Positions 1-12,947 of a stretch of DNA of 64,000 bases are shown here, piece after piece. The notes beneath the pieces were generated by a model, which was not told where the DNA came from, ran no database searches, and worked only from the letters and a program-made list of their open reading frames with translations. Numbering within the stretch: position 1 is the first letter of the stretch; each line of letters begins with the position of its first letter. Source of the DNA: Palleniella intestinalis. Lineage in GTDB: Bacteria > Bacteroidota > Bacteroidia > Bacteroidales > Bacteroidaceae. Location: assembly GCF_013166595.1 (NCBI RefSeq), contig NZ_JABKKG010000011.1, positions 62,001 through 126,000 of the forward strand. The letters run 5' to 3'. The position numbers were made by a program, and so were the translations under genes.

Positions 1-1433
1 TGGACATAGAGCTTTCCCAATGTCCTGCCATATGAAGCGAATGCATAAGCCATCGTCTCCTTTATCCTGCTGTCATCGTCATCCACAATGTCCTGTGGAA
101 GGACGGCATAAAAGGACTTGCGTCTCGCCTTGGAATATTCTCCGCCTGCCGACAGATTGCCCGAACATAACGGAAAAGAGAGCACGAGCTTCGTGGCAAC
201 AAGGCTGTTGCGGGTACGGCGGTTGGAGTTCACCTCCATTGCAGTCTCCGGCTTGCCGCTTTCCTCGTAGCGTTCGATATTGCTCACCCTCTCGTTCTTT
301 CCGTACCGGAAATAATCGGCATTGAAGTCGATATTCACCTTCCCGACTTTTCCTGCATAGTAGACATTGGTAAGTGTCGAGGTGGACTGTGCAGGGGAAT
401 GGTAATGTGCCATGGACTTTTCTGCCGGCATGCCGTCACGCGTGGCAATGGAAAGAATGTCTCCGGTACCGGAGTTCTTTGCATAGCGATCATAGCTTAT
501 ACTCGCACCGAAAGAGTGGTTTTCTGCCGGCATGTAGTTTGCCGCCAGGCGCACATAAGGGTTGATGTTTGTGTACTCCTGTGCGATCTCGTTTGTCTGT
601 TCCCAAACCTCATTGAGGAAAGTCTGCTGCCGCAGCTGCTTGTCATCCCGGGAATGGGTGTATGCTCCATAAAGTTGCGCGCTGACATCCAGCTTTCCGG
701 TGCGGTAGTTCATGCTCAGATTCTCGTATGCACTTGTCCGCTTATGCTCGTTGACGGCAAAACTCGTCTTGGTGTCAATACTGAATCCCTCGCCCACAGG
801 CTTCTTTGTGGTGATGCGTATCACGCTCGTCACATGCGCATCGTAGCGTGCACCGGGATTGGTTATAACCTCCACATTCTTTATTTCGTCAGGCTGAAGA
901 CGCTCCAGCTCCATACGGTCGCGCATCTTCCTACCGTTGATGTAAATTTCCGGCGTCCCTCTGCCAAACACCTCTATGGAGCCGTTGCGCGCAGAGACAT
1001 AAGGAATGAGGTTCAGCATATTTTCCATGGAGCCGGCTTTCTCAAGCACTGAGCCTGCAACGATGGTGGTCATGCCCTCACCACGAAGGATGGTTTTAGG
1101 CTGGTGCGCCTTCACCACAACCTCGCCAAGAAGTCTCTCATCCTCATGCAGCTCTATGCTCATGCGCTCCTCACCTCTATACACAACAAATGCTGTCCTG
1201 AATCCAACGGAGGAAACTCTAAGGATATTCCCATTACGGACATTGTCAATAATGAAGTTTCCTGCATTGTCACTCACCGCCCCGCCAAGAAATATGGAAT
1301 CACTTGAGGCCAGTACAGCTATATTGGCAAAACCTACAGGTCTCTTGCTACAGTCCGTCACTGTACCTATCAGACTCTGTGCCCAAGCGCCAAGTCCGGC
1401 AAGCATGAATAATATGGATGTTATCTTTCTCAT
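1..1433 (-). CDS. Outer-membrane beta-barrel / TonB-dependent receptor-like protein, 3' end missing
   Basis: The gene starts at ATG 1433 on the minus strand and runs off the left edge, so about 477 N-terminal codons are visible. The product has a signal peptide (MRKITSILFMLAGLGAWAQS), then a carboxypeptidase-regulatory-like domain at about residues 22-105, a plug-like region with the typical 'VFGRGTPEIYINGRKMRD' and 'EVITNPGARYDA' signatures, and the first barrel strands. This is the pattern of the outer-membrane beta-barrel family related to TonB-dependent receptors, without the SusC 'ELVVVGYG' box. It lies 41 bp downstream of the radical SAM gene on the same strand, so it is probably the third gene of the precursor-maturase operon. 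A role in moving the modified peptide or its ligand across the outer membrane is an inference from position only. Confidence 0.85.
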   Translation of the reverse strand, partial: MRKITSILFMLAGLGAWAQSLIGTVTDCSKRPVGFANIAVLASSDSIFLGGAVSDNAGNFIIDNVRNGNILRVSSVGFRTAFVVYRGEERMSIELHEDERLLGEVVVKAHQPKTILRGEGMTTIVAGSVLEKAGSMENMLNLIPYVSARNGSIEVFGRGTPEIYINGRKMRDRMELERLQPDEIKNVEVITNPGARYDAHVTSVIRITTKKPVGEGFSIDTKTSFAVNEHKRTSAYENLSMNYRTGKLDVSAQLYGAYTHSRDDKQLRQQTFLNEVWEQTNEIAQEYTNINPYVRLAANYMPAENHSFGASISYDRYAKNSGTGDILSIATRDGMPAEKSMAHYHSPAQSTSTLTNVYYAGKVGKVNIDFNADYFRYGKNERVSNIERYEESGKPETAMEVNSNRRTRNSLVATKLVLSFPLCSGNLSAGGEYSKARRKSFYAVLPQDIVDDDDSRIKETMAYAFASYGRTLGKLYV

Positions 1434-1474: not shown

Positions 1475-2797
1475 TCATCTATCATTATGTACCTTCATCT
1501 CACAATACGAAACTGCATCATAGAAAGTCTGTCCTTCAAATACAGGCCTTAGTCTGCAATTCTTCATAATACAATATGTATTCAGCTTGCAATCTTTACA
1601 ATCAGTCAAAACATCAAGAGTAGTTCCTCCCCTATAAATATCCCATTTTGATGACTTCCAAATATCACAGATGTCTTGAGATAAAAGATTTCCAATTTTA
1701 TATTCTTTATGCCCAACTCCAAATATACATGGATAAACATCAAAATTTTCATCCAATGCAAACAATGAATTCCCTGCCGAGCAGGCAATTCTATTTATAG
1801 AAGAAGTTAACCTCATTGTTGAATCATCAGCCAAAATTAATCGTTCACCATATTTCTTCTTTTCCAAGCACAACTGCTGAATAAACTTATTTTCATTATC
1901 ATCTAATATTAAATCTGTATTATAAGCAGCTCTACCTACAGGTCTCAGACGACTTACAAACAAAGAGTCCGCATTTAATTCTAATAAGACATAATCTATA
2001 AGCTTCTCTATTTCAAAAATATTCCTTTTATTTACAGTGCAAGTTATACTGAATGTCACGTGATTTCTCTTCAACTCCTCGAGAATACCTTTAAGAATTA
2101 AGAATGTTCCTTTCCCACGAATATAGTCATGTGTTAAATTACTAATTCCATCCAAAGATATACCCAACTGAATATTTGCTTTTTTTATCATCTTAATATG
2201 ATCAGTGTCCAGCAAAAGTGCATTCGTAAGAATCATTGTCTCATAGTGAACATTAGCCAATAGAGTCAAGAATTTCTTTATATTAGGATGTGAGAATGGC
2301 TCTCCTCCTGTAATTTTCAAAGTCTTTATGCCAGCAACTTCCAACTGTTCTACAACTCTTTCCAATTCAGCATCAGTAAAATCTTTAATAGAGAATTTTG
2401 GCGCAGAGCCTTCAAAGCAATGTTTGCACGACAAATTACAATGCCTCGTTAGAAAAAATTCCACTCTCTCTGGAGAAGACATAGTTCCTGTTGGCAGCTC
2501 CGTGTCTGATATTTTATAATTTACATTTATTCTTTTCTTGTATTCTGGCTCAGGAATCAAAAGATCCAAGAAATCCTTTTGCTCAAGAAATGCAAAGAAA
2601 TCTGTCAAATCGATGCCATGTTTTGCTCCTTCATCCCTGATAAACGAAAATGATATTGCCTGATTATAAAAATATTTTAGAATATAATACAATTTACAGG
2701 AAATATAATAAGTTTTCAAAGATTTCTTATTATAAAGAACATATACCCCTTCACTATCATTTCTAAGTGTATAGTTATAATTAAGAATATAATTCAT
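1475..2797 (-). CDS. Radical SAM/SPASM peptide maturase
   Basis: The 440-residue protein carries the radical SAM cluster motif CxxxCxxC as C120, C124 and C127 (TRHCNLSCKHCFEG). Its C-terminal SPASM region has CSAG...YPC followed by CKDCKLNTYCIMKNC (C-x2-C-x5-C-x3-C) and a last Cys near the end, which fits a seven-cysteine SPASM domain holding auxiliary iron-sulfur clusters. Residues 1-90 contain 'YTLRNDSEGVYVLYNKKS', a start typical of PqqD-like leader-recognition domains in RiPP maturases. The gene lies 71 bp downstream of the 66-residue precursor candidate on the same strand. Family knowledge predicts a thioether, C-C or other radical crosslink in the peptide; which bond and which residues cannot be told from sequence. 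The region is clearly more AT-rich than the housekeeping genes to the right. Confidence 0.9.
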   Translation of the reverse strand: MNYILNYNYTLRNDSEGVYVLYNKKSLKTYYISCKLYYILKYFYNQAISFSFIRDEGAKHGIDLTDFFAFLEQKDFLDLLIPEPEYKKRINVNYKISDTELPTGTMSSPERVEFFLTRHCNLSCKHCFEGSAPKFSIKDFTDAELERVVEQLEVAGIKTLKITGGEPFSHPNIKKFLTLLANVHYETMILTNALLLDTDHIKMIKKANIQLGISLDGISNLTHDYIRGKGTFLILKGILEELKRNHVTFSITCTVNKRNIFEIEKLIDYVLLELNADSLFVSRLRPVGRAAYNTDLILDDNENKFIQQLCLEKKKYGERLILADDSTMRLTSSINRIACSAGNSLFALDENFDVYPCIFGVGHKEYKIGNLLSQDICDIWKSSKWDIYRGGTTLDVLTDCKDCKLNTYCIMKNCRLRPVFEGQTFYDAVSYCEMKVHNDR

Positions 2798-2812: not shown

Positions 2813-2840
2813 AACGTGTTGGAAAAAATTCCAACACGTT
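2813..2840 (-). terminator. Hairpin between precursor and maturase, probable leaky terminator
   Basis: A 12-bp perfect inverted repeat, AACGTGTTGGAA and TTCCAACACGTT, is separated by four A residues. It sits in the 71 bp between the precursor stop and the maturase start. Only a weak T-rich stretch follows on the minus strand. Partial termination here would give much more precursor than enzyme mRNA, a common arrangement in peptide operons; this is inferred. Confidence 0.6.
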
Positions 2841-2868: not shown

Positions 2869-3069
2869 CTAGCCTTCACTCTGTATTGGTTTGTCCACAG
2901 GTTTTTGGACTACAACTGTATCAGGAACTTGATTATCACTGCAACACTTTAATGCATAGCCATGCCCTGAGGCTGCCAATCCTTGTACAACAGATGTTAC
3001 ACCAGCTTCACCAGCTTTAACCAAATCTAGTTCTCTTTTATTGAGGCTATCAAAAATTGAATTATTCAT
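2869..3069 (-). CDS. Candidate RiPP precursor peptide
   Basis: A 66-residue peptide immediately upstream of a radical SAM/SPASM enzyme. The N-terminal half, MNNSIFDSLNKRELDLVKAG, resembles the 'L.K.EL..IKGG'-type leaders of Bacteroidota natural-product precursors. It is followed by a small-residue stretch (EAGVTSVVQGLAASGHGYAL), a CC pair at residues 42-43 and a hydrophilic tail rich in V, P, K and Q. No transporter or double-Gly peptidase gene is visible beside it. The ATG at 3069 lies just after a long A/T run, with no strong purine ribosome site, as is usual in Bacteroidota. The family is not one I can name; the RiPP assignment rests on size, leader-like start and gene order. Modification sites are unknown; C42, C43 and nearby residues are plausible. 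Confidence 0.7.
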   Translation of the reverse strand: MNNSIFDSLNKRELDLVKAGEAGVTSVVQGLAASGHGYALKCCSDNQVPDTVVVQKPVDKPIQSEG

Positions 3070-3119
3070 TATTTTTTTTTAATTATTGTCCTCTTACAGC
3101 TTCAGACTTTGCTCCTTTT

Positions 3120-3135
3120 TCCAGAAAGGTCTGGA
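3120..3135 (-). other. Small hairpin in precursor 5' leader
   Basis: TCCAGA and TCTGGA pair across an AAGG loop. It lies within the predicted untranslated leader of about 120 nt of the precursor mRNA. A role in stability or translation is possible but not shown. Confidence 0.35.
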
Positions 3136-3193: not shown

Positions 3194-3276
3194 CAAAGTT
3201 ATACAAACTCTGACTTTTTATTTTGACACAAAAGTGTATTTGTGTTATATACGATTCGTTTTATACACAAAAGTGT
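3194..3276 (-). promoter_or_regulatory. Precursor promoter with paired ACAC-N4-GTGT boxes
   Basis: On the minus strand TAACTTTG (3194-3201) matches the Bacteroidota -7 element TAnnTTTG. Two identical copies of ACACAAAAGTGT lie upstream at 3226-3237 and 3265-3276. The near box ends 25 bp from the -7 element, which would centre it near -41 to -42, the place where class II activators bind. The boxes are 39 bp apart. The same layout recurs upstream of the acyltransferase and ThiF genes. Confidence 0.75.
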
Positions 3277-3277
3277 G

Positions 3278-3904
3278 TTAACAGGCATTAACCAACCTAT
3301 TGTAATGATTGTAGAAAGGCATAATATCCTCTTTGCTTGAGCATATAGGCACTGTCTCCGAAGCAAGATAGTCCAAGGAATCTCCAAGTTGTCTTGTGTG
3401 TATTCCGAGTGCATTCATAACGCGTAAAAGTTTGCTATCCGTTTCCGCTATCATATAACTATTGTCATCACATACTATAGGATAAACAGCATAAACCATC
3501 AATTGCTTGAATAGTGTCAGCGTGGGCATTCCGGAGAATGAATCTATGGCAAAGCGTCCAACATGCCAATATTCATAAATGGATTCTGAATGTATAGATT
3601 GCAGAGGATTTATACCAAAGATTTTTTCTATTGGCAGTGGTTTATCTTTGTCCCATTTAAAGACACGAATCGAGCCTATCAGTTTGCCTTCTGCATTACG
3701 TACAACATATATATAAGAGTTTCCCGAATAAGACAGTTCCTCCTTGTACACTTTTGAGATTTCCTTTTCCAATTCTTCTGAATCTGCAACTCCTGCATGA
3801 TGTTTGTAGTTTTCACGAACCACAAACTCTGCTAGTTCATACAGGTTTTCCTTACCCAGCTGTAGGATTTCATACACTCCATTTGCATACACTTGTTTTT
3901 CCAT
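3278..3904 (-). CDS. LuxI/FeeM-like N-acyltransferase (GNAT fold)
   Basis: A 208-residue protein with two motifs that resemble autoinducer synthases and N-acyl amino acid synthases. IGSIRVFKW at 76-84 matches the 'iGslRl' strand, and WHVGRFAID at 113-121 is close to the 'WElSRFAVD' signature of LuxI-type enzymes. A later stretch, ETDSKLLRVMNALGIHTRQLGD at about 154-175, resembles the C-terminal part of the same fold. There is no signal peptide or membrane segment. Known members join a fatty acyl group, usually from acyl-ACP, to an amino acid or homoserine lactone; here the product is unknown. It is divergent from a LuxR-type regulator and ends just upstream of the precursor promoter. A plain GNAT acetyltransferase acting on the peptide is the alternative. 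Confidence 0.65.
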   Translation of the reverse strand: MEKQVYANGVYEILQLGKENLYELAEFVVRENYKHHAGVADSEELEKEISKVYKEELSYSGNSYIYVVRNAEGKLIGSIRVFKWDKDKPLPIEKIFGINPLQSIHSESIYEYWHVGRFAIDSFSGMPTLTLFKQLMVYAVYPIVCDDNSYMIAETDSKLLRVMNALGIHTRQLGDSLDYLASETVPICSSKEDIMPFYNHYNRLVNAC

Positions 3905-3973: not shown

Positions 3974-4096
3974 CAAAGTTAGCAGAAGGATTGCACTTTG
4001 CCTTTACACAAAAGTGTATTTCCACAACAAGTGTATGATTTTTTACACTTTTGTGTGTTAAAATGTTGTCCAATTACAATTTTATTATTACTTTTG
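3974..4096. promoter_or_regulatory. Shared divergent promoter of acyltransferase and LuxR-type gene
   Basis: For the minus strand, TAACTTTG (3974-3981) is the -7 element of the acyltransferase. Boxes ACACAAAAGTGT (4006-4017) and ACACTTTTGTGT (4045-4056) lie 25 and 64 bp upstream of it, the same spacing as at the precursor promoter. For the plus strand, TACTTTTG (4089-4096) is a -7 element for the regulator, with the nearest box 33 bp upstream. One pair of boxes could therefore control both genes. Confidence 0.7.
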
Positions 4097-4121: not shown

Positions 4122-4874
4122 ATGGTAACAAGAGATTTCTTCATTATATCAAATGCAGTTCACGGCATCACAGACGCAGATTATAAGCTGGCAGACCTTC
4201 TTGTGAATGCGGCTAAGGCTTTTGCAAGAAGCACTCATCAAGGAGTATACATCATTGACTATTTCAAAATGAATTTCCTTTATGTATCGGAGAATCTTGC
4301 AAATTGGTGCGGTGTGCCGGCTGACAAAATCAGGGAATTCGGCTACCAAATTTATGTGGACCATGTACCGGAAGAGGAGCAAAAGATGCTCATTGAAATA
4401 AACAGAAGCGGGTTCAACCTCTTTGAGACCATTCCGGTGGAAGAACGTCTTGACTATACCATTTCTTATGATTTCCACTTCATCACAGGGCGAAAAAAAC
4501 AGTTGATAAACCACAACCTTACCCCTATGACACTGACAAAGGACGGAAGAATTTGGTTAGCACTATGCACTGTGGCTATGTCCTCACGCAGCACTCCGGG
4601 ACATATAGTAATGAGAAAATCAGATTCTGAAACATACTACGAGTACTCACTCGACAAACACAAATGGATTGTAAAAAATAATGTAACCTTAAGCGGCATA
4701 GAACGTGACGTTCTGATACTCTCCGCCCAAGGCTACACTATGAATGAAATTGCTGACAACCTATGCAAATCCATTGATACAATAAAAGCCTGCAAAAGAA
4801 CTTTGTTTGTGAAACTTGGAGTCAGGAACATCGCAGAAGCCCTTTCTTATGCCACAAACTACAAACTCATATAA
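4122..4874 (+). CDS. PAS-LuxR-type transcriptional regulator
   Basis: The 250-residue protein has a PAS-like sensory region at about 35-165 (YIIDYFKMNFLYVSENLANW, HVPEEEQK) and a C-terminal LuxR/GerE helix-turn-helix at about 187-250, with 'LSGIERDVLILSAQGYTMNEIA' and 'SIDTIKACKRTLFVKLGVRN'. There is no receiver domain with phosphorylatable Asp, so it is not a classical response regulator. It starts at ATG 4122 after a -7 element at 4089-4096. It is divergent from the acyltransferase and convergent with ThiF, with only 10 bp between the two stop codons. Binding to the ACAC-N4-GTGT boxes and sensing of an acylated product are inferences from neighbourhood. PAS-LuxR regulators are common in Bacteroidales and mostly uncharacterised. 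Confidence 0.85.
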   Translation: MVTRDFFIISNAVHGITDADYKLADLLVNAAKAFARSTHQGVYIIDYFKMNFLYVSENLANWCGVPADKIREFGYQIYVDHVPEEEQKMLIEINRSGFNLFETIPVEERLDYTISYDFHFITGRKKQLINHNLTPMTLTKDGRIWLALCTVAMSSRSTPGHIVMRKSDSETYYEYSLDKHKWIVKNNVTLSGIERDVLILSAQGYTMNEIADNLCKSIDTIKACKRTLFVKLGVRNIAEALSYATNYKLI

Positions 4875-4884
4875 GTATTTTCTA

Positions 4885-5643
4885 TCAACGTGCAGTCTCG
4901 CACATCAATGATGACAAATAGAATTTTGGGAAATATTTCACCTCCTTGCCTGCAACAATGTTATACATAGCATTGACACAATGACCGGCTGCAATCCACG
5001 AACCAACAGATAACTGTGGAGGTGGCAGCACCGCAGCTTCACGCTTGTATTCCTCTACAATGCCTGCCAGCCATTGGTTTGGAAGATTCCAGAAGGCCTC
5101 ATAATTCGATACATACTCGGCGACCTTCAGTTCAAAACCACGATAGTCTTTTGACAATTCCGTCAGTCTGTAGCCTTCAGGCTTGACTATTGTAAGGAAT
5201 CCTGCCCAACCGAAATTATAAGGATGAAGCACAGGAATATGTTCCCGCGAGCATATTTCGTCAAAAACAAAAGGAATATCGCTCTTGAAATCCAAGGCAT
5301 TGATGGCTATGTCATGTCCTTTGACAAGGCCTTCCACATTCTCATGGTCAATGAAAGAATTCACAAAAGCAATGCTGGCAGAAGGATTTATGCCCAACAG
5401 CCTTTTGGCAAGTGCTTCTGCCTTGTATGTGCCAATATCCCCCTCTGTATAGTTCTGACGGTTGAGGTTGCTCAACTCCACTTTGTCACCATCGACAATA
5501 GTGATATTCTCAAAGCCGAAACGCAAAGCGCATTCTGCTATGATACTGCCAATACCGGCACCCCCTAAAAGGATATGGGTATTTCTGACTTTTTCCTGCT
5601 CTTCCGCATTGACATAAATGCGATTCCTGCTGTATCTTTCCAT
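4885..5643 (-). CDS. ThiF/E1-like adenylating enzyme
   Basis: From ATG 5643 the product is 252 residues. It has the nucleotide-binding glycine loop LLGGAGIGS at 25-33, DGDKVELSNLNRQ at 51-63 and the Lys of GTYKAEAL (K74), the hallmarks of MoeB/ThiF/MccB adenylyltransferases. No CxxC zinc pairs, rhodanese domain or partner ubiquitin-like protein is seen. An upstream in-frame ATG at 5742 is rejected because the promoter and boxes lie between 5667 and 5748. Known relatives adenylate the C-terminus of a carrier protein or peptide; MccB does this in microcin C synthesis. The shared promoter layout suggests that it works with the precursor or the acyltransferase product. It is distinct from tcdA at 51256. 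Confidence 0.85.
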   Translation of the reverse strand: MERYSRNRIYVNAEEQEKVRNTHILLGGAGIGSIIAECALRFGFENITIVDGDKVELSNLNRQNYTEGDIGTYKAEALAKRLLGINPSASIAFVNSFIDHENVEGLVKGHDIAINALDFKSDIPFVFDEICSREHIPVLHPYNFGWAGFLTIVKPEGYRLTELSKDYRGFELKVAEYVSNYEAFWNLPNQWLAGIVEEYKREAAVLPPPQLSVGSWIAAGHCVNAMYNIVAGKEVKYFPKFYLSSLMCETAR

Positions 5644-5666: not shown

Positions 5667-5748
5667 CAAAGTTACAAATGGTTTTGAAACTTACATAGAA
5701 TAAAAGTGATTTTTTGATTGATGCTCTGCAAAGTATACACAAAAGTGT
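5667..5748 (-). promoter_or_regulatory. ThiF gene promoter with the same box pair
   Basis: TAACTTTG (complement of 5667-5674) is followed upstream by a degenerate box GAATAAAAGTGA (5698-5709, 8 of 12 matches) and an exact ACACAAAAGTGT (5737-5748). The spacing is 24 and 63 bp from the -7 element and 39 bp between boxes, nearly the same as at the other two promoters. Confidence 0.65.
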
Positions 5749-5918: not shown

Positions 5919-6098
5919 ATGACAGCTACAATCCAAAACCCTTACGCCGCATGGCTCATCATAGGATGCGCGGCACTGGTACTGCTCATCGTCTTCGGAA
6001 GCACAATATGCCACCGGCTTGCCATTTTCAACCACAAGCACCACATCGTGGAGTGGGACGACAGTTCTGTTTACACTTGGGAGGATGATGACGAATAA
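5919..6098 (+). CDS. Small single-span membrane protein
   Basis: A 59-residue reading frame with a hydrophobic segment at about 11-30 (AWLIIGCAALVLLIVFGSTI) and a His- and acid-rich tail ending in EDDDE. It starts 34 bp after a -7 element, and its 3' end overlaps the start of the exporter subunit gene by 14 bp, which suggests translational coupling. I do not recognise the family. The link to the exporter is positional. Confidence 0.65.
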   Translation: MTATIQNPYAAWLIIGCAALVLLIVFGSTICHRLAIFNHKHHIVEWDDSSVYTWEDDDE

Positions 6099-6867
6099 GG
6101 AAAAAGGCGCAGGAATGCTCGGGACATTCCTGTGCAGCTACGCCACCACACTGCTGGAATGCGGGGCGGCGACGGTGAGGATAGAGAAGAATGTCGGTCG
6201 CATGGCGGAGGCTTACGGCGGAGATGCCGAAGTGAGCATCTATCCGCGGCATGTGGAAGTGGTGCTGAAGGACGACGAGAGCGGAACGACGGAGGTATGC
6301 AGCAAGGCCATCAGCGGCAGCGTAATAAACTATTCCACCGTCAGCGCACTGAGCAAACTCAGCTGGAACTGCCTTGACCGCCACACACCGCTGCCTGTCG
6401 CCATGAGGCAGTACCGAAGAATCACCCATGCTACAAGGATTCCCTTGTGGGCGGTGACCTTGCTTGCCGCCCTCGCAAACGCATCGTTCTGCCGTCTTTT
6501 CGAAGGCGACCGGCAAGCGATGGGCATTGTCTTCCTTGCCACTGTCTGCGGCTTCCACCTGCGAAGTGTGCTCTGCAAGAGGCATGGCGTCGACATGCGC
6601 ATAGCGACAATTCTTGCCGCCTGCGTCTCCTCGGTGCTTTCCTGCTCATGCTATGTCTTCGGCATAGGCAGCACTCCCGACATAGCGTTAGGCACAAGTG
6701 TGCTCTATCTCATACCGGGCATTCCCTACCTGAACGCTGTCAGCGACCTCATCAACGGGCATCACATCTGTGCCATGAGCCGCTTCGTCCATGCCATAAC
6801 CATCACCGTGTGCCTGTCCATAGGGCTTTACCTCGGACTTGCATTGATGAGTTTCCAAGGATTCTGA
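6085..6867 (+). CDS. Threonine/serine exporter family protein, ThrE/YjjP-like subunit
   Basis: From ATG 6085 the product is 260 residues. The first ~115 residues are soluble (LLECGAATVRIEKNVGRMAEAYG, the typical DUF1212 opening) and are followed by about five membrane segments, with LIPGIPYLNAVSDLI matching the conserved 'PG.P..N...D' loop. The ThrE fold is split over two genes here, with the short partner at 7058-7531, as in the YjjP/YjjB pair that exports succinate in E. coli. The upstream in-frame start at 6019 lies inside the small membrane gene and is not used in this call. The exported solute cannot be told. Confidence 0.85.
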   Translation: MMTNKEKGAGMLGTFLCSYATTLLECGAATVRIEKNVGRMAEAYGGDAEVSIYPRHVEVVLKDDESGTTEVCSKAISGSVINYSTVSALSKLSWNCLDRHTPLPVAMRQYRRITHATRIPLWAVTLLAALANASFCRLFEGDRQAMGIVFLATVCGFHLRSVLCKRHGVDMRIATILAACVSSVLSCSCYVFGIGSTPDIALGTSVLYLIPGIPYLNAVSDLINGHHICAMSRFVHAITITVCLSIGLYLGLALMSFQGF

Positions 6868-6926
6868 CGAGCAACAACAGCAAAACATTATATACTGATA
6901 ATCAATATTTTACAAGTAACAAAACA

Positions 6927-7012
6927 AAAGATAACCTTTCGCACTGCAAAGTGTTACCTTTTGCCATACGAAAGGTTACCTTTTGCGTCATAAACCGTTA
7001 CCTTTCGCCAAG
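6927..7012. repeat. Dispersed repeat family A, copy 1
   Basis: A block of alternating GTTACCTTT and CGCA/TTGC units between the two exporter subunit genes, including 'ataacctttcgcactgcaaa' and 'gaaaggttaccttttgc'. Related blocks occur near 18210-18336, 40138-40240 and 52077-52166. This copy lacks the TTTTTTAGCA end seen in the others. Confidence 0.6.
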
Positions 7013-7057
7013 AGAAACATTTCCACACAATTCACCACACATCACGACTACCACAAC

Positions 7058-7531
7058 ATGCTACCAATAATCGAAGATTCATTCTTTGCCGCAATAGCCG
7101 CAATCGGCTTCGGAAGCATAAGCAACGTGCCTGTCAAGGCTTTCACAGGATGTGCCATCCTCGCCGCTGCGGGGCATGCGACAAGGACACTGCTGACAGG
7201 GCAGTTTGGCATCGACATCATCCCCGCCAGCTTCATCGGCAGTATCGTCATAGGTCTGCTGTCAATCCCCGTCTCGTCCCATTGGAAGGCACCGGCGGAA
7301 AGCATGTCCTTCCCTGCCCTCTTGCCCATGATTCCGGGAATGTATGCCTACCGCGCCATGCAGGCACTCATCGCCTGCGTGCAGCACACATCCGAGAGTG
7401 AGTTCATGCACCAGCTGTATCTGCTGAACTATAACGGGCTCGTCTGCTGCACAATAGTGCTGCTGATGTTCCTCGGTGTGACAGTGCCGATATTCTGTTT
7501 CAAACGGTATTCCTTCTCTGCCACACGCTGA
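7058..7531 (+). CDS. Threonine/serine exporter family protein, YjjB-like subunit
   Basis: A 157-residue membrane protein starting MLPIIEDSFF, with about four to five hydrophobic helices and the conserved LLPMIPGMYAYRAM loop found in YjjB/DUF3815 proteins. The in-frame upstream ATG at 6983 would lie within a repeat block and is less likely. It is the partner of the YjjP-like protein; the two genes are separated by 190 bp filled by a family A repeat, an unusual gap for an obligate pair. Confidence 0.85.
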   Translation: MLPIIEDSFFAAIAAIGFGSISNVPVKAFTGCAILAAAGHATRTLLTGQFGIDIIPASFIGSIVIGLLSIPVSSHWKAPAESMSFPALLPMIPGMYAYRAMQALIACVQHTSESEFMHQLYLLNYNGLVCCTIVLLMFLGVTVPIFCFKRYSFSATR

Positions 7532-10385: not shown

Positions 10386-12947
10386 TTAGAACGTCATGTT
10401 GACCGCGAAGCGCACACCATTCTTTATGGCTGTGTCAAGGTCGTTGTATGACAGGCGGTGGATATAGTCAACTTCAAGGAACTTGAAGATGTTGTGTACA
10501 CCCACACACACTTCCGCATAGGGCTTGTTGCTCATGATGTTACATCCGACAGGGAACTGCAGCAAGACATCACTTCCTGCATTCTCCGGCAGGTAAGGGT
10601 TGTTCTTGTTGGTCAGTTTGCCGTACATTCCGCGGAAAGAGATGAACTCACGCCATTTCAGTTTCTTAAGCAACGGCACGCGGTTGAAGAGCTTTCCGTT
10701 AAGATCCCAAGAGACATGCCACATGGCATAGCGGTCATTGAGGAACTCCATGTTGTTCATCAGCTGGAATGTATATGTTCCCGGTTGTGAAAGCCAGCCA
10801 AGGTTGACGCGCGGCATGATGAGCAATGGGAACGGGACAACGTCCCACTGTGCTCCTCCTGCTACATAGATGTCGAGTTTTCCCCATGAATTGAGCCAGA
10901 AACGCTTGTAGATTGACGCCTCCGTGAAGTTCATCTTGTACTTTCCGCCAAGCACTCCGTCAACGGCAACGGTATGGTCAATGGCGAAAATTGGCGCATC
11001 GAGGTTGATTGGGTAACGGCGCTGCTTTGTGTTGATGAAGGTCTCTCCCGGGGCGAAACGGAAGCCTATGTGTGCCTCTGTAGTACGGATTTCCTTGTCA
11101 AATGGTGAGCCGTCAATCGCACGGAATTGCATTTCAGCCGCACCTTTGATGCCTTCGGCCTTCAATCCTATGGTCGTTGCGAAGCCTGCAAGTGTCTCGT
11201 ACTTGAATTCAAGCTGCTGGCGGTTGTAGAAATAGAGCTTGTCCACTTCGCGTGTCTTGAACGCCATGAACATGTTATCCTTGTTTGTCAGCAGGAATTT
11301 GTCCGACGGTGACATTATGTCATATTCCGAAAGGAAAGTGAACTGGCGTATCGGGAACTCCCAAGGTTCCCTGTGCTTCTTGTTCAGAGACCATGTGAAC
11401 TGCGTCGAATAGTACCATTTCGCACTCTCTGCACCGTAAGCCACGTAGCCGTTCCAGAATAGATGGTTGTTCAATGCAGCAGTGGTGCGGCCTGAAAGCC
11501 TGAATCGCCATCCGTCAACAATGTTCTTGTTGATGATTGTGTTGACAGGGCCGATGTCAAACTTTGACGGTATGGAGTCACTTAGGGTGCATTCCACATA
11601 GTTATTCATGAAGGCTTTGAGCACAAAGAGGACGGTCTTCATGCCAGGAATGTTTGCCACACTCTTGGCGAATCCGCCCACACTCTCCTCGGATTTTGTC
11701 AGCTTCACCGTGCGGAACTGGTTCCAGAAGTCCTTTCCTCGGTTACGTGCATCCTGGTCGACGACATGCGTTGCCGTGCCACGGAAGTCACGTTTCGGAA
11801 GTTCCGTGAAACTGTAGTTTGAGAGTTTTGTGGTTCTTATCACCACCGCATTGTTAAGCATGCGGTTGAGTTTCAGTTCGACAAGCATGTTGTCTGTGTC
11901 GAGCACCCACTGTCCGTCAGGGAGTTTGACATATTCCTGTTCAATCTTCATGTTGTCCACGAAGTTGACATCCGACTTCTTTGGTATGGTCAGCGACACT
12001 TTGCGTACATGGAGCGTGGAGTCGTTGAGCACCCATATATCGCCACGGAATCCGAAGTCCTGCTGGTTGTTAGGGACAAATGTCAGGCGGATGCACTGGT
12101 CTTTGTCAATAAGGCAGGTGTCTACAATGTAGTAACGGTAGAAACCTATTGCGTCCTTGCCTATCGGTGAGGTGAAAGGGAACTGCAGAAGGCGCACCTG
12201 GTCGTCATAGATGTCCACGTCGGTAAAGATGTCCTTCATTGATGCGTCAAGGATGTTTCCTGCCGTTTCCACAAGGTTAGCCACACCGGTAGAGCTTTCT
12301 CCAAGGACAGTGGTCTTCTCTGCACGCGGGCTTTTCCTGTACACTTTTCGGGAAACCGTCTCGGAAATCTGCACAGGGCATATCAGTTTGCCGTTCATAG
12401 GGCAAACCTCTATCTGGTCGACAAGCCAATCTTTATTGCCTTTCTCCTTTTGTTCCTGAATGTCTTCAGGAGAGACATTGTTCTTGGCAAGCGTAAGTTT
12501 CTGGTATTTGTAGAACTCATAATAGCTGTTGTTGTCAAGGTCGGTCTTCTTCTTTGCAGCGATGACCCGCTTCATGAGTTCCACGGCAGGATTGTTCTTG
12601 CGTGAATACTTGCCGCGTTTTGACTTGACAACGACCTCTTGGAGTTGCTTTGTGTCCGGTTTGAGCTTTACCACTATGTGGTTCTTGGTCTTCTCATTGA
12701 CGAGGATTTCCTTCGTCTTGTAGCCCATAGCGGTAAAATAAAGTTTCCATCCATTGTGCCTTGCAATGGAGAAACGTCCGTTATAGTCCGCCGCAGCCAT
12801 GACATGATGGGTGCGGTAGACAACGCCTGCCATCGGGATGCTGTCTCCTGTGGCAGCATCTATGACAACGCCTGTTATCTTTTGAGAAAATGCGCCTGCT
12901 GCCACCATTAGCAGCAGGACGCATGATATGAAAAGTCTTTTTACCAT
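10386..12947 (-). CDS. DUF5686 / carboxypeptidase-like regulatory domain outer-membrane protein
   Basis: From ATG 12947 the product is 853 residues. It starts with a signal peptide (MVKRLFISCVLLLMVAAGAFSQ) and a carboxypeptidase-regulatory-like domain at about 23-105 (KITGVVIDAATGDSIPMAGVVY). A long DUF5686 region follows, with the family phrase 'SYYEFYKYQKLTLAKNN' and a predicted C-terminal beta-barrel ending in a terminal Phe (VRFAVNMTF). The function of DUF5686 proteins is unknown. It lies 10 bp after the inositol-3-phosphate synthase gene in the same direction, so it may be the last gene of the inositol-lipid operon. The in-frame ATG at 12998 overlaps that gene and would spoil the signal peptide. 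Confidence 0.85.
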   Translation of the reverse strand: MVKRLFISCVLLLMVAAGAFSQKITGVVIDAATGDSIPMAGVVYRTHHVMAAADYNGRFSIARHNGWKLYFTAMGYKTKEILVNEKTKNHIVVKLKPDTKQLQEVVVKSKRGKYSRKNNPAVELMKRVIAAKKKTDLDNNSYYEFYKYQKLTLAKNNVSPEDIQEQKEKGNKDWLVDQIEVCPMNGKLICPVQISETVSRKVYRKSPRAEKTTVLGESSTGVANLVETAGNILDASMKDIFTDVDIYDDQVRLLQFPFTSPIGKDAIGFYRYYIVDTCLIDKDQCIRLTFVPNNQQDFGFRGDIWVLNDSTLHVRKVSLTIPKKSDVNFVDNMKIEQEYVKLPDGQWVLDTDNMLVELKLNRMLNNAVVIRTTKLSNYSFTELPKRDFRGTATHVVDQDARNRGKDFWNQFRTVKLTKSEESVGGFAKSVANIPGMKTVLFVLKAFMNNYVECTLSDSIPSKFDIGPVNTIINKNIVDGWRFRLSGRTTAALNNHLFWNGYVAYGAESAKWYYSTQFTWSLNKKHREPWEFPIRQFTFLSEYDIMSPSDKFLLTNKDNMFMAFKTREVDKLYFYNRQQLEFKYETLAGFATTIGLKAEGIKGAAEMQFRAIDGSPFDKEIRTTEAHIGFRFAPGETFINTKQRRYPINLDAPIFAIDHTVAVDGVLGGKYKMNFTEASIYKRFWLNSWGKLDIYVAGGAQWDVVPFPLLIMPRVNLGWLSQPGTYTFQLMNNMEFLNDRYAMWHVSWDLNGKLFNRVPLLKKLKWREFISFRGMYGKLTNKNNPYLPENAGSDVLLQFPVGCNIMSNKPYAEVCVGVHNIFKFLEVDYIHRLSYNDLDTAIKNGVRFAVNMTF

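Follow-up and report, generated by a model that had tools for sequence, protein, structure and literature searches.

The window, as we call the whole 64,000-nucleotide stretch of DNA analysed here, carries at 2869..3069 on the minus strand an open reading frame for 66 amino acids with an ATG start. It is likely to encode the precursor of a secreted, enzyme-modified peptide (RiPP) of a Prevotella-like bacterium; the modification, the cleavage of the leader and the export are all inferred. With the predicted cut at the slash, the precursor is MNNSIFDSLNKRELDLVKAG / EAGVTSVVQGLAASGHGYALKCCSDNQVPDTVVVQKPVDKPIQSEG. Its leader (residues 1–20; 3010..3069, minus strand) ends in ELDLVKAG and is of the double-glycine type in an AG variant, while residues 21–66 (46 residues; 2872..3009, minus strand) form the core and tail. 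Two adjacent cysteines, Cys42-Cys43, whose codons lie at 2941..2946 (minus strand), are recognised as a conserved pair by their position in four intact precursors, and in the window they are followed by 23 hydrophilic residues. Double-glycine leaders share a well-known pattern, which this leader fits with E-8, L-7, V-4, A-2 and G-1; that it ends in AG, not GG, is a point against the assignment. The slot of the gene, between a pair of operator boxes and a maturase gene, is the same in relatives.

Among 200 genomes of the genus, 38 gave a match to the precursor at E<=1, but only the genome itself and that of Prevotella ihumii (G163) did so below 1e-3, and in the remaining 36 every E value was above 0.03. 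The P. ihumii orthologue is 60% identical over residues 1–40 (E=1e-10), its gene order is the same as in the window, and LVKAGEA is invariant between the two. Over the 38 shared codons we obtained dN=0.26 and dS=1.33 (NG86; dN/dS ~0.19), with 21 of the 35 base differences at third positions. Because of this orthologue and this ratio, we consider the frame a protein-coding gene under selection rather than a chance frame, with purifying selection acting on the leader, as far as the 38 codons shared with G163 tell. No NCBIfam family, TIGR04149 included, matched the window's precursor at E<=1.

The operon runs in the order GNAT acyltransferase, precursor, radical SAM enzyme, outer-membrane protein and C39 exporter. 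Directly behind the precursor lies the gene of a radical SAM/SPASM peptide maturase (440 aa; 1475..2797, minus strand; Pfam Radical_SAM and SPASM). It is followed by an outer-membrane beta-barrel protein with a CarboxypepD_reg domain (3..1433, minus strand; OMP_b-brl_3 and CarbopepD_reg_2), which extends past the edge of the window and counts 772 aa in the genome; a barrel gene also follows the maturase in L098, L100, L160 and L161. Just outside the window, a 732-aa ABC exporter carries an N-terminal Peptidase_C39 domain (E 1.8e-32), a domain known to cut double-glycine leaders. The gap between precursor and maturase holds a 12-bp hairpin (2813..2840, minus strand; -17.3 kcal/mol, z -3.88 against shuffles). 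It is probably an attenuator or the end of an mRNA, although this role is inferred; such hairpins would often hold maturase mRNA below precursor mRNA. The original prediction, made without any database search, had described an ORF with adjacent cysteines and a hydrophilic tail, a leader-like stretch of 20 residues and a maturase nearby. All of these held: the coordinates were exact, the cysteines are residues 42 and 43 and the tail has 23 residues, the leader has the double-glycine pattern and a C39-peptidase exporter in its operon, and both maturase domains score above the Pfam cut-offs.

A profile of the maturase built with four relatives placed SkfB, SuiB and CteB first among solved structures, and the top Foldseek rows for its structural model (pLDDT only 67.7) were SuiB, SkfB and CteB. 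The match to SuiB begins at profile position 27, before the radical SAM core, where the model is weak (pLDDT ~55-70). The N-terminal region may be a precursor-recognition domain, a weak claim given the low confidence of the model. Among the 25 best-scoring of 82 NCBIfam families, none reached its cut-off; the top one, mycofactocin maturase, gave 101.2 bits where 265 are required. Relatives are rare: one of 200 genus genomes at 1e-40 (its own), three of 399 family genomes at 1e-45 (its own included) and, with the profile, one of 393 order genomes at 1e-60 (again its own). A single-sequence search of genome contigs found no relative of the maturase, the one in L100 having come from the cassette search described below; viral contigs yielded one distant match with 24% identity.

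Only four intact loci of this maturase subfamily were found (the window, L100, L160 and L161), and the other three maturases are 28-29% identical to that of the window. Each of these three is directly preceded by a small ORF with a leader and a core: FAVSVTTYGLNVQGVSNCCNTTTPTQPTKEE in L100, VSVMSEETQVAGLQGWNNCCNVAKDEKDK in L161 and NGNIEEEAPSESVFGLIVCCG in L160. Their leaders end in GG or GA, that of the window in AG, and apart from the CC pair the three precursors differ from that of the window. CC begins at core positions 22, 18, 19 and 19 of the four intact precursors, with 23, 12, 9 and 1 residues behind it. Since CC keeps a similar distance from the leader and the tail varies, we take the CC segment to be the probable modified core and the tail to be dispensable; this is inferred from sequence conservation, and so is the modification itself. 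In the more distant radical SAM locus L085, the corresponding motif is FKCC, with CC at core position 17. The conserved pair is compatible with a sactipeptide or ranthipeptide, in which a cysteine forms a thioether with another residue, but it is no proof of either. A thioether and a carbon–carbon link cannot be told apart from sequence, and the crosslink is not predictable. We also considered a cyclophane formed through an aromatic-x-x core (YAL, YGL, WNN and FGL before CC), but with four sequences this is a hint only and was discounted.

In P. ihumii (G163, the same locus as L098), a single deletion has left roughly the first 37 precursor codons fused to the part of the maturase gene that encodes its SPASM end (L098:10757-11052), removing CC and the catalytic part of the maturase. 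The acyltransferase, LuxR, ThiF, outer-membrane and exporter genes are kept, and the deletion means only that the locus is decayed there. As to the original prediction, its identification of a RiPP precursor is supported by the linkage of precursor and maturase in 4/4 intact loci, which also means that the refutation it had named, homologues unlinked from the maturase, did not occur. Its emphasis on a distinctive Val/Pro/Lys tail held only in part, as the tail is present but not conserved and CC is the conserved element. It was silent on the exporter, on the operator boxes and on the cassette of genes upstream.

That cassette comprises three genes. The one next to the precursor encodes a GNAT acyltransferase of 208 aa resembling FeeM and AHL synthases (3278..3904, minus strand; model pLDDT 92.7), an assignment based on its fold. 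The nearest solved fold is FeeM (Z 16.6, rmsd 2.8, 173 aligned residues), followed by the AHL synthases LasI (Z 14.9), TofI (14.8) and RpaI (14.3), while generic GNAT acetyltransferases reach 14.1 at best. FeeM therefore stands out, and the AHL synthases lead other GNATs only slightly. The Pfam FeeM family (PF21926) matched at 18.7 bits, below its cut-off of 27. With generic GNATs so close to the AHL synthases and FeeM below the Pfam cut-off, the substrate may be something else. A sequence profile run against solved sequences returned neither FeeM nor an AHL synthase at E<=1, so the link to both rests on fold only.

Divergent from the acyltransferase lies a gene for a LuxR-type regulator (4122..4874, plus strand) with a standard helix-turn-helix (GerE) domain and what we take to be a PAS-like sensor domain. 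Its profile matches 3clo_A, a solved transcriptional regulator, over positions 92–246 (E 3.4e-15), covering part of the sensor half and the HTH, and does so better than it matches any AHL-binding LuxR protein. Neither an Autoind_synth nor an AHL-binding domain was found in the cassette by Pfam at E<=1. The third gene encodes a ThiF-like adenylating enzyme (4885..5643, minus strand; Pfam ThiF 1.3e-34); its homologues start at the ATG at 5643, whereas the listed ORF opens with a TTG at 5742. Sixteen aligned sequences all share glycines of the nucleotide-binding loop, the motif DGD..E.SNLNRQ, one lysine and, within NALDF, the aspartate. Given this invariant adenylation core, the enzyme should adenylate a carboxylate, an activity which is inferred. 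Adjoining the cassette at window 6019-7531 (plus strand) are the genes of a two-part ThrE-like threonine/serine exporter and a LysR-type regulator; exact copies of the operator described below are absent from that stretch.

The promoters of the cassette are marked by the palindrome TACACTTTTGTGTA, with the core ACACTTTTGTGT. At the precursor promoter, which is separate from that of the acyltransferase, box 1 (with the core ACACTTTTGTGT) lies at 3265..3276 and box 2 at 3226..3237 (both minus strand), 39 bp apart. Exactly 24 nt downstream of box 2 is TAACTTTG (3194..3201, minus strand), a candidate Bacteroidetes -7 element. The intergenic region between the regulator and the acyltransferase has two further boxes (4006..4017, minus strand, and 4045..4056, plus strand), again 39 bp apart, and one box lies upstream of the ThiF-like gene (5737..5748, minus strand). 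All five exact copies of the core in the window belong to this locus. Allowing up to one mismatch, the window gives seven matches, where 0.43 would be expected from shuffled sequence. Exact copies number six in the entire 3.5-Mb genome, five of them here and the sixth within the coding sequence of a 945-aa ORF, which we take to be leucyl-tRNA synthetase.

A search of genome contigs with an alignment of the GNAT acyltransferase yielded 104 confirmed relatives, and the best 80 by acyltransferase similarity are the loci referred to here. By record title all of them are from Bacteroidota, except L107 (an Eubacteriales MAG). Because some are near-duplicates (such as L082/L083/L084, L076/L077 and L089/L090), our counts are of loci and not of independent events. 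Alignment A12 omits L106, L118, L119 and L127 because of translation errors. The regulator stands divergently next to the acyltransferase in 68 of the 76 loci with more than 1.2 kb of upstream sequence; in L093 and L098, which are exceptions, it lies further away. Among the 70 loci with more than 2.4 kb upstream, 61 have a ThiF-like gene and 58 have both ThiF and LuxR. The three proteins are 38-74% identical to those of the window. Thus the anatomy of the locus and the conservation of the cassette are shown. Within the genus, the acyltransferase was detected in 18 of 398 genomes at E<=1e-5, in some only as fragments. L106 has an extra operator (L106:17189), and L114, L076 and L101 have second acyltransferase copies, whole or partial; it is possible that these four represent tandem or duplicated cassettes.

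In the 80 loci, 205 of 212 ACACNNNNGTGT sites fell into the predicted promoter stretches (on either side of the acyltransferase or ahead of the ThiF-like gene), which together span 49,237 bp. The other seven are scattered over 1,329,935 bp, and four of these precede a displaced regulator gene. Under a Markov control, the complete set of 80 loci yielded 7-12 sites. Neighbouring sites are spaced by 39 bp (45 pairs), 38 bp (15), 28 bp (10) or 43 bp (1), so that 39 or 38 bp accounts for 60 of the 71 pairs. For the stretch after the acyltransferase we compared a hand-picked 33 of the 80 loci and the window, and 33 of these 34 stretches have a box. TAnnTTTG, which we take to be the Bacteroidetes -7 promoter element, lies exactly 24 nt from the proximal box in 25 of the 33 boxed stretches, window included; in the others it is found at 23 nt (one) or 25 nt (one), or is absent (six). 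This distance puts the proximal box near -42, where LuxR-type activators are known to sit. The operator geometry is thus shown; binding of the boxes by the LuxR-type regulator is inferred.

Variants of the box were also found. In L100 (9901-10684) and L105 (1392-2106), TACCC-N4-GGGTA replaces the usual palindrome at all four places and the 39-bp spacing is kept. The two half-sites have changed in concert, which is what one would expect if a dimer bound there, although there are no binding data. Thirteen loci possess a LuxR gene, but the region around their acyltransferase contains no ACACNNNNGTGT. In two of these, both positions are taken by the TACCC variant; a single CACCC-type palindrome occurs in each of L143 and L144; and in the remaining nine (eight Flavobacteria and one Tannerella) no recognisable box was seen near the acyltransferase, so the operator is not universal even where the regulator is present. 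We looked by eye for differences in the regulator's recognition helix that would go with the type of box (ACAC or ACCC), but could not establish such a link. The stretch after the acyltransferase is open in one frame in several relatives and might be read as a peptide (MCNISDNKFRITQK...), but we rejected this candidate as conserved promoter DNA.

Between this promoter and the precursor, the 5′ UTR contains an element of the form CAGACC..CTG..AAAGGAG..GAAGCT (3083..3134, minus strand), derived from an alignment of 13 sequences and common to relatives. Its 3′ part corresponds to Rfam DUF805b in L100 (39.8 bits) and L161 (38.7 bits); the copy in the window was not recognised as DUF805b by Rfam, and seven other loci gave no DUF805b match at the gathering score. 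The element precedes precursors and other payload genes alike (L100:10750-10801, L100:16998 and L161:9026-9059). Folding of five single UTR sequences was no better than that of shuffles (z -0.85 to 0.16). The stems GCC/GGC, GTC/GAC and ACC/GGT seem to covary, an impression gained by eye only and not counted. An upstream ORF spanning CAGACC..AAAGGAG was considered and dismissed, since inspection by eye indicated that the frame is not maintained from one locus to the next, and Rfam assigns the 3′ part of the element to DUF805b in two relatives.

What lies behind the cassette differs widely between loci. We found clusters of the class I lanthipeptide type that carry several GG precursors (L111, L123, L132 and L135, the dehydratase domain being checked in L132), radical SAM clusters (L070, L085, L091, L095, L097, L106, L107, L129, L144 and L146), and a B12-type radical SAM cluster related to TIGR03975 but below its cut-off (L071). 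Other loci carry NRPS and NRPS/PKS genes (L118, L120 and L131) or secreted proteases, astacin-like in L075 (9890-11008) and C10-like in L109 (10981-12387). The cassette is thus independent of its payload across Bacteroidota. The reverse also occurs: L161 (also cited as G741) has the unit of precursor, maturase, barrel and exporter without the cassette. The acyltransferase profile found nothing at E<=1e-5 in either of the two family genomes with close maturases (G741 and G751), although it recovered the copy in the window's own genome as a control, so this peptide family does not always come with the cassette.

Taken as a whole, we think it likely that the locus produces a modified and exported RiPP switched by a quorum-sensing-like cassette, although there are no data on modification, cleavage, binding or a signal. 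In this reading, the maturase would bind the 20-residue leader and modify the core before and around Cys42-Cys43, by a thioether or a carbon–carbon crosslink, and the C39-peptidase ABC exporter would cut after Ala19-Gly20 and export the product; both steps are inferred. The LuxR-type regulator would switch the precursor operon, the acyltransferase/LuxR pair and the ThiF-like gene together via TACACTTTTGTGTA. The acyltransferase, probably with the ThiF-like enzyme, would most likely make a small acylated ligand which the regulator senses, so we propose that the peptide is made when the signal accumulates. The synthesis of such a signal, its export and the activation of the promoters are inferred, as is the role of the peptide, which would most likely be antagonistic.

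Several other explanations deserve consideration. The acyltransferase and the ThiF-like enzyme could be tailoring enzymes that decorate the peptide, giving a lipidated RiPP, instead of signal enzymes. Both adjoin the precursor and share its operator, and GNAT-type acylation of RiPPs is known. Against this, the same three genes precede NRPS and secreted protease genes, beside which an enzyme decorating one peptide is not expected; the unit of precursor, maturase, outer-membrane protein and exporter occurs without the cassette in G741, and neither G741 nor G751 has an acyltransferase of this kind at E<=1e-5; and the precursor has a promoter of its own, apart from that of the acyltransferase. We therefore regard tailoring as unlikely and prefer signalling. 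Less plausible still is a peptide pheromone, in which case the cassette would sense the exported peptide as its signal. All units carry the same operators, which would permit positive feedback, but the regulator is conserved across loci whose payload peptides are unrelated or missing; it also looks cytoplasmic, and we saw no receptor kinase in the locus.

Equally improbable, in our judgement, is an unmodified bacteriocin-like peptide whose CC pair forms disulphides, with the radical SAM enzyme acting elsewhere. The cysteines could indeed form disulphides, and peptides with GG leaders can be exported unmodified. However, precursor and maturase are neighbours in all four intact loci, and in P. 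ihumii one deletion damaged both together. Harder to dismiss is the possibility that the cassette senses an internal metabolite or the state of lipids and not cell density. PAS-type sensor domains often read cytoplasmic cues, and we identified no gene that would export a small signal. On the other side, LuxI/LuxR pairs usually consist of a synthase gene next to a LuxR-type gene under common operators, and the cassette has this arrangement, with a gene of the FeeM/AHL-synthase fold in the place of the synthase.

Returning to the signalling cassette, a bolder version is also conceivable, about which we are evenly divided: the cassette would be a quorum-sensing system of Bacteroidota, so far undescribed, that works through an acyl signal and switches on clusters for secreted weapons and enzymes. 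Here the acyltransferase would make an N-acyl amino acid, as FeeM does, and the ThiF-like enzyme would adenylate the carboxylate of that product and so close or derivatise it into the final signal. The regulator with its bound signal would then activate promoters bearing TACACTTTTGTGTA, in the present locus that of the CC-core radical SAM peptide.

As in LuxI/LuxR systems, a gene resembling an acyl synthase diverges from a LuxR-HTH gene, and a palindromic box at a fixed promoter distance is common to synthase and target genes. Unlike them, the cassette has no AHL-binding domain that Pfam could find, and it includes an additional conserved enzyme of the ThiF family. It thus works like LuxI/LuxR in layout and fails the tests of domain membership, and the signal remains inferred. 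With respect to FeeM and LuxI-type AHL synthases, the window's acyltransferase differs in its partners, a PAS-like regulator of the LuxR type and an enzyme resembling ThiF. To our knowledge, LuxI/LuxR-type pairs have hardly been described in Bacteroidota. Our search of the literature returned no description of the cassette, but as it covered only open-licence PMC papers, this is weak evidence of absence; with that reservation, the cassette seems undescribed.

The peptide itself has better-known relatives. Bacteroidales clusters with radical SAM enzymes, GG leaders and PCAT exporters have been surveyed with BAGEL4 (PMC10352776), and like the window they combine a radical SAM enzyme, a GG-type leader, a C39-peptidase exporter and an outer-membrane protein in one cluster. 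The main text of that survey has no occurrence of LuxR, ThiF or acyltransferase, whereas the window has all three. Likewise, the TIGR04149 (GG_sam_targ_CFB) precursors are from Bacteroidota and have a GG-type leader and a radical SAM enzyme; the window's precursor does not match that family, whereas a Chryseobacterium payload precursor does. SkfB, SuiB and CteB, the closest solved maturases by both profile and fold, have low identity to the window's maturase, and the cores of their precursors are unlike its core. We conclude that the precursor represents a new RiPP subfamily of the already surveyed Bacteroidales type with radical SAM enzymes and GG leaders.

It is worth stressing what follows from these results. 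The new peptide subfamily offers a conserved motif that can be tested, the CC pair with its similar spacing from the leader, and its compact operon lends itself to product discovery. The greater gain lies in the cassette: a pair of palindromes 39 bp apart, with 24 nt to TAnnTTTG, provides a DNA rule for finding co-regulated clusters for secreted products, and it applies across Bacteroidota, in Bacteroidales and Flavobacteria alike. Finally, the cassette makes LuxI/LuxR-like signalling in Bacteroidota directly testable.

Some payloads have features of their own. The gene that directly follows the acyltransferase in several Flavobacteria looks like a NusG paralogue (L110, at 11202-11705, L112, L118, L120, L121 and L131); the NusG domain was checked in L110, and in some of these loci NRPS genes follow. 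The paralogue could possibly be a processive antiterminator for a long payload operon. The payload at L073:10755-12692 is a protein with a weak match to an F5/8 type C domain. In a Tenacibaculum locus (L113:12478-13085), three short precursors stand in tandem; each precursor ends in CCCSDP followed by one residue, and the leaders lack GG.
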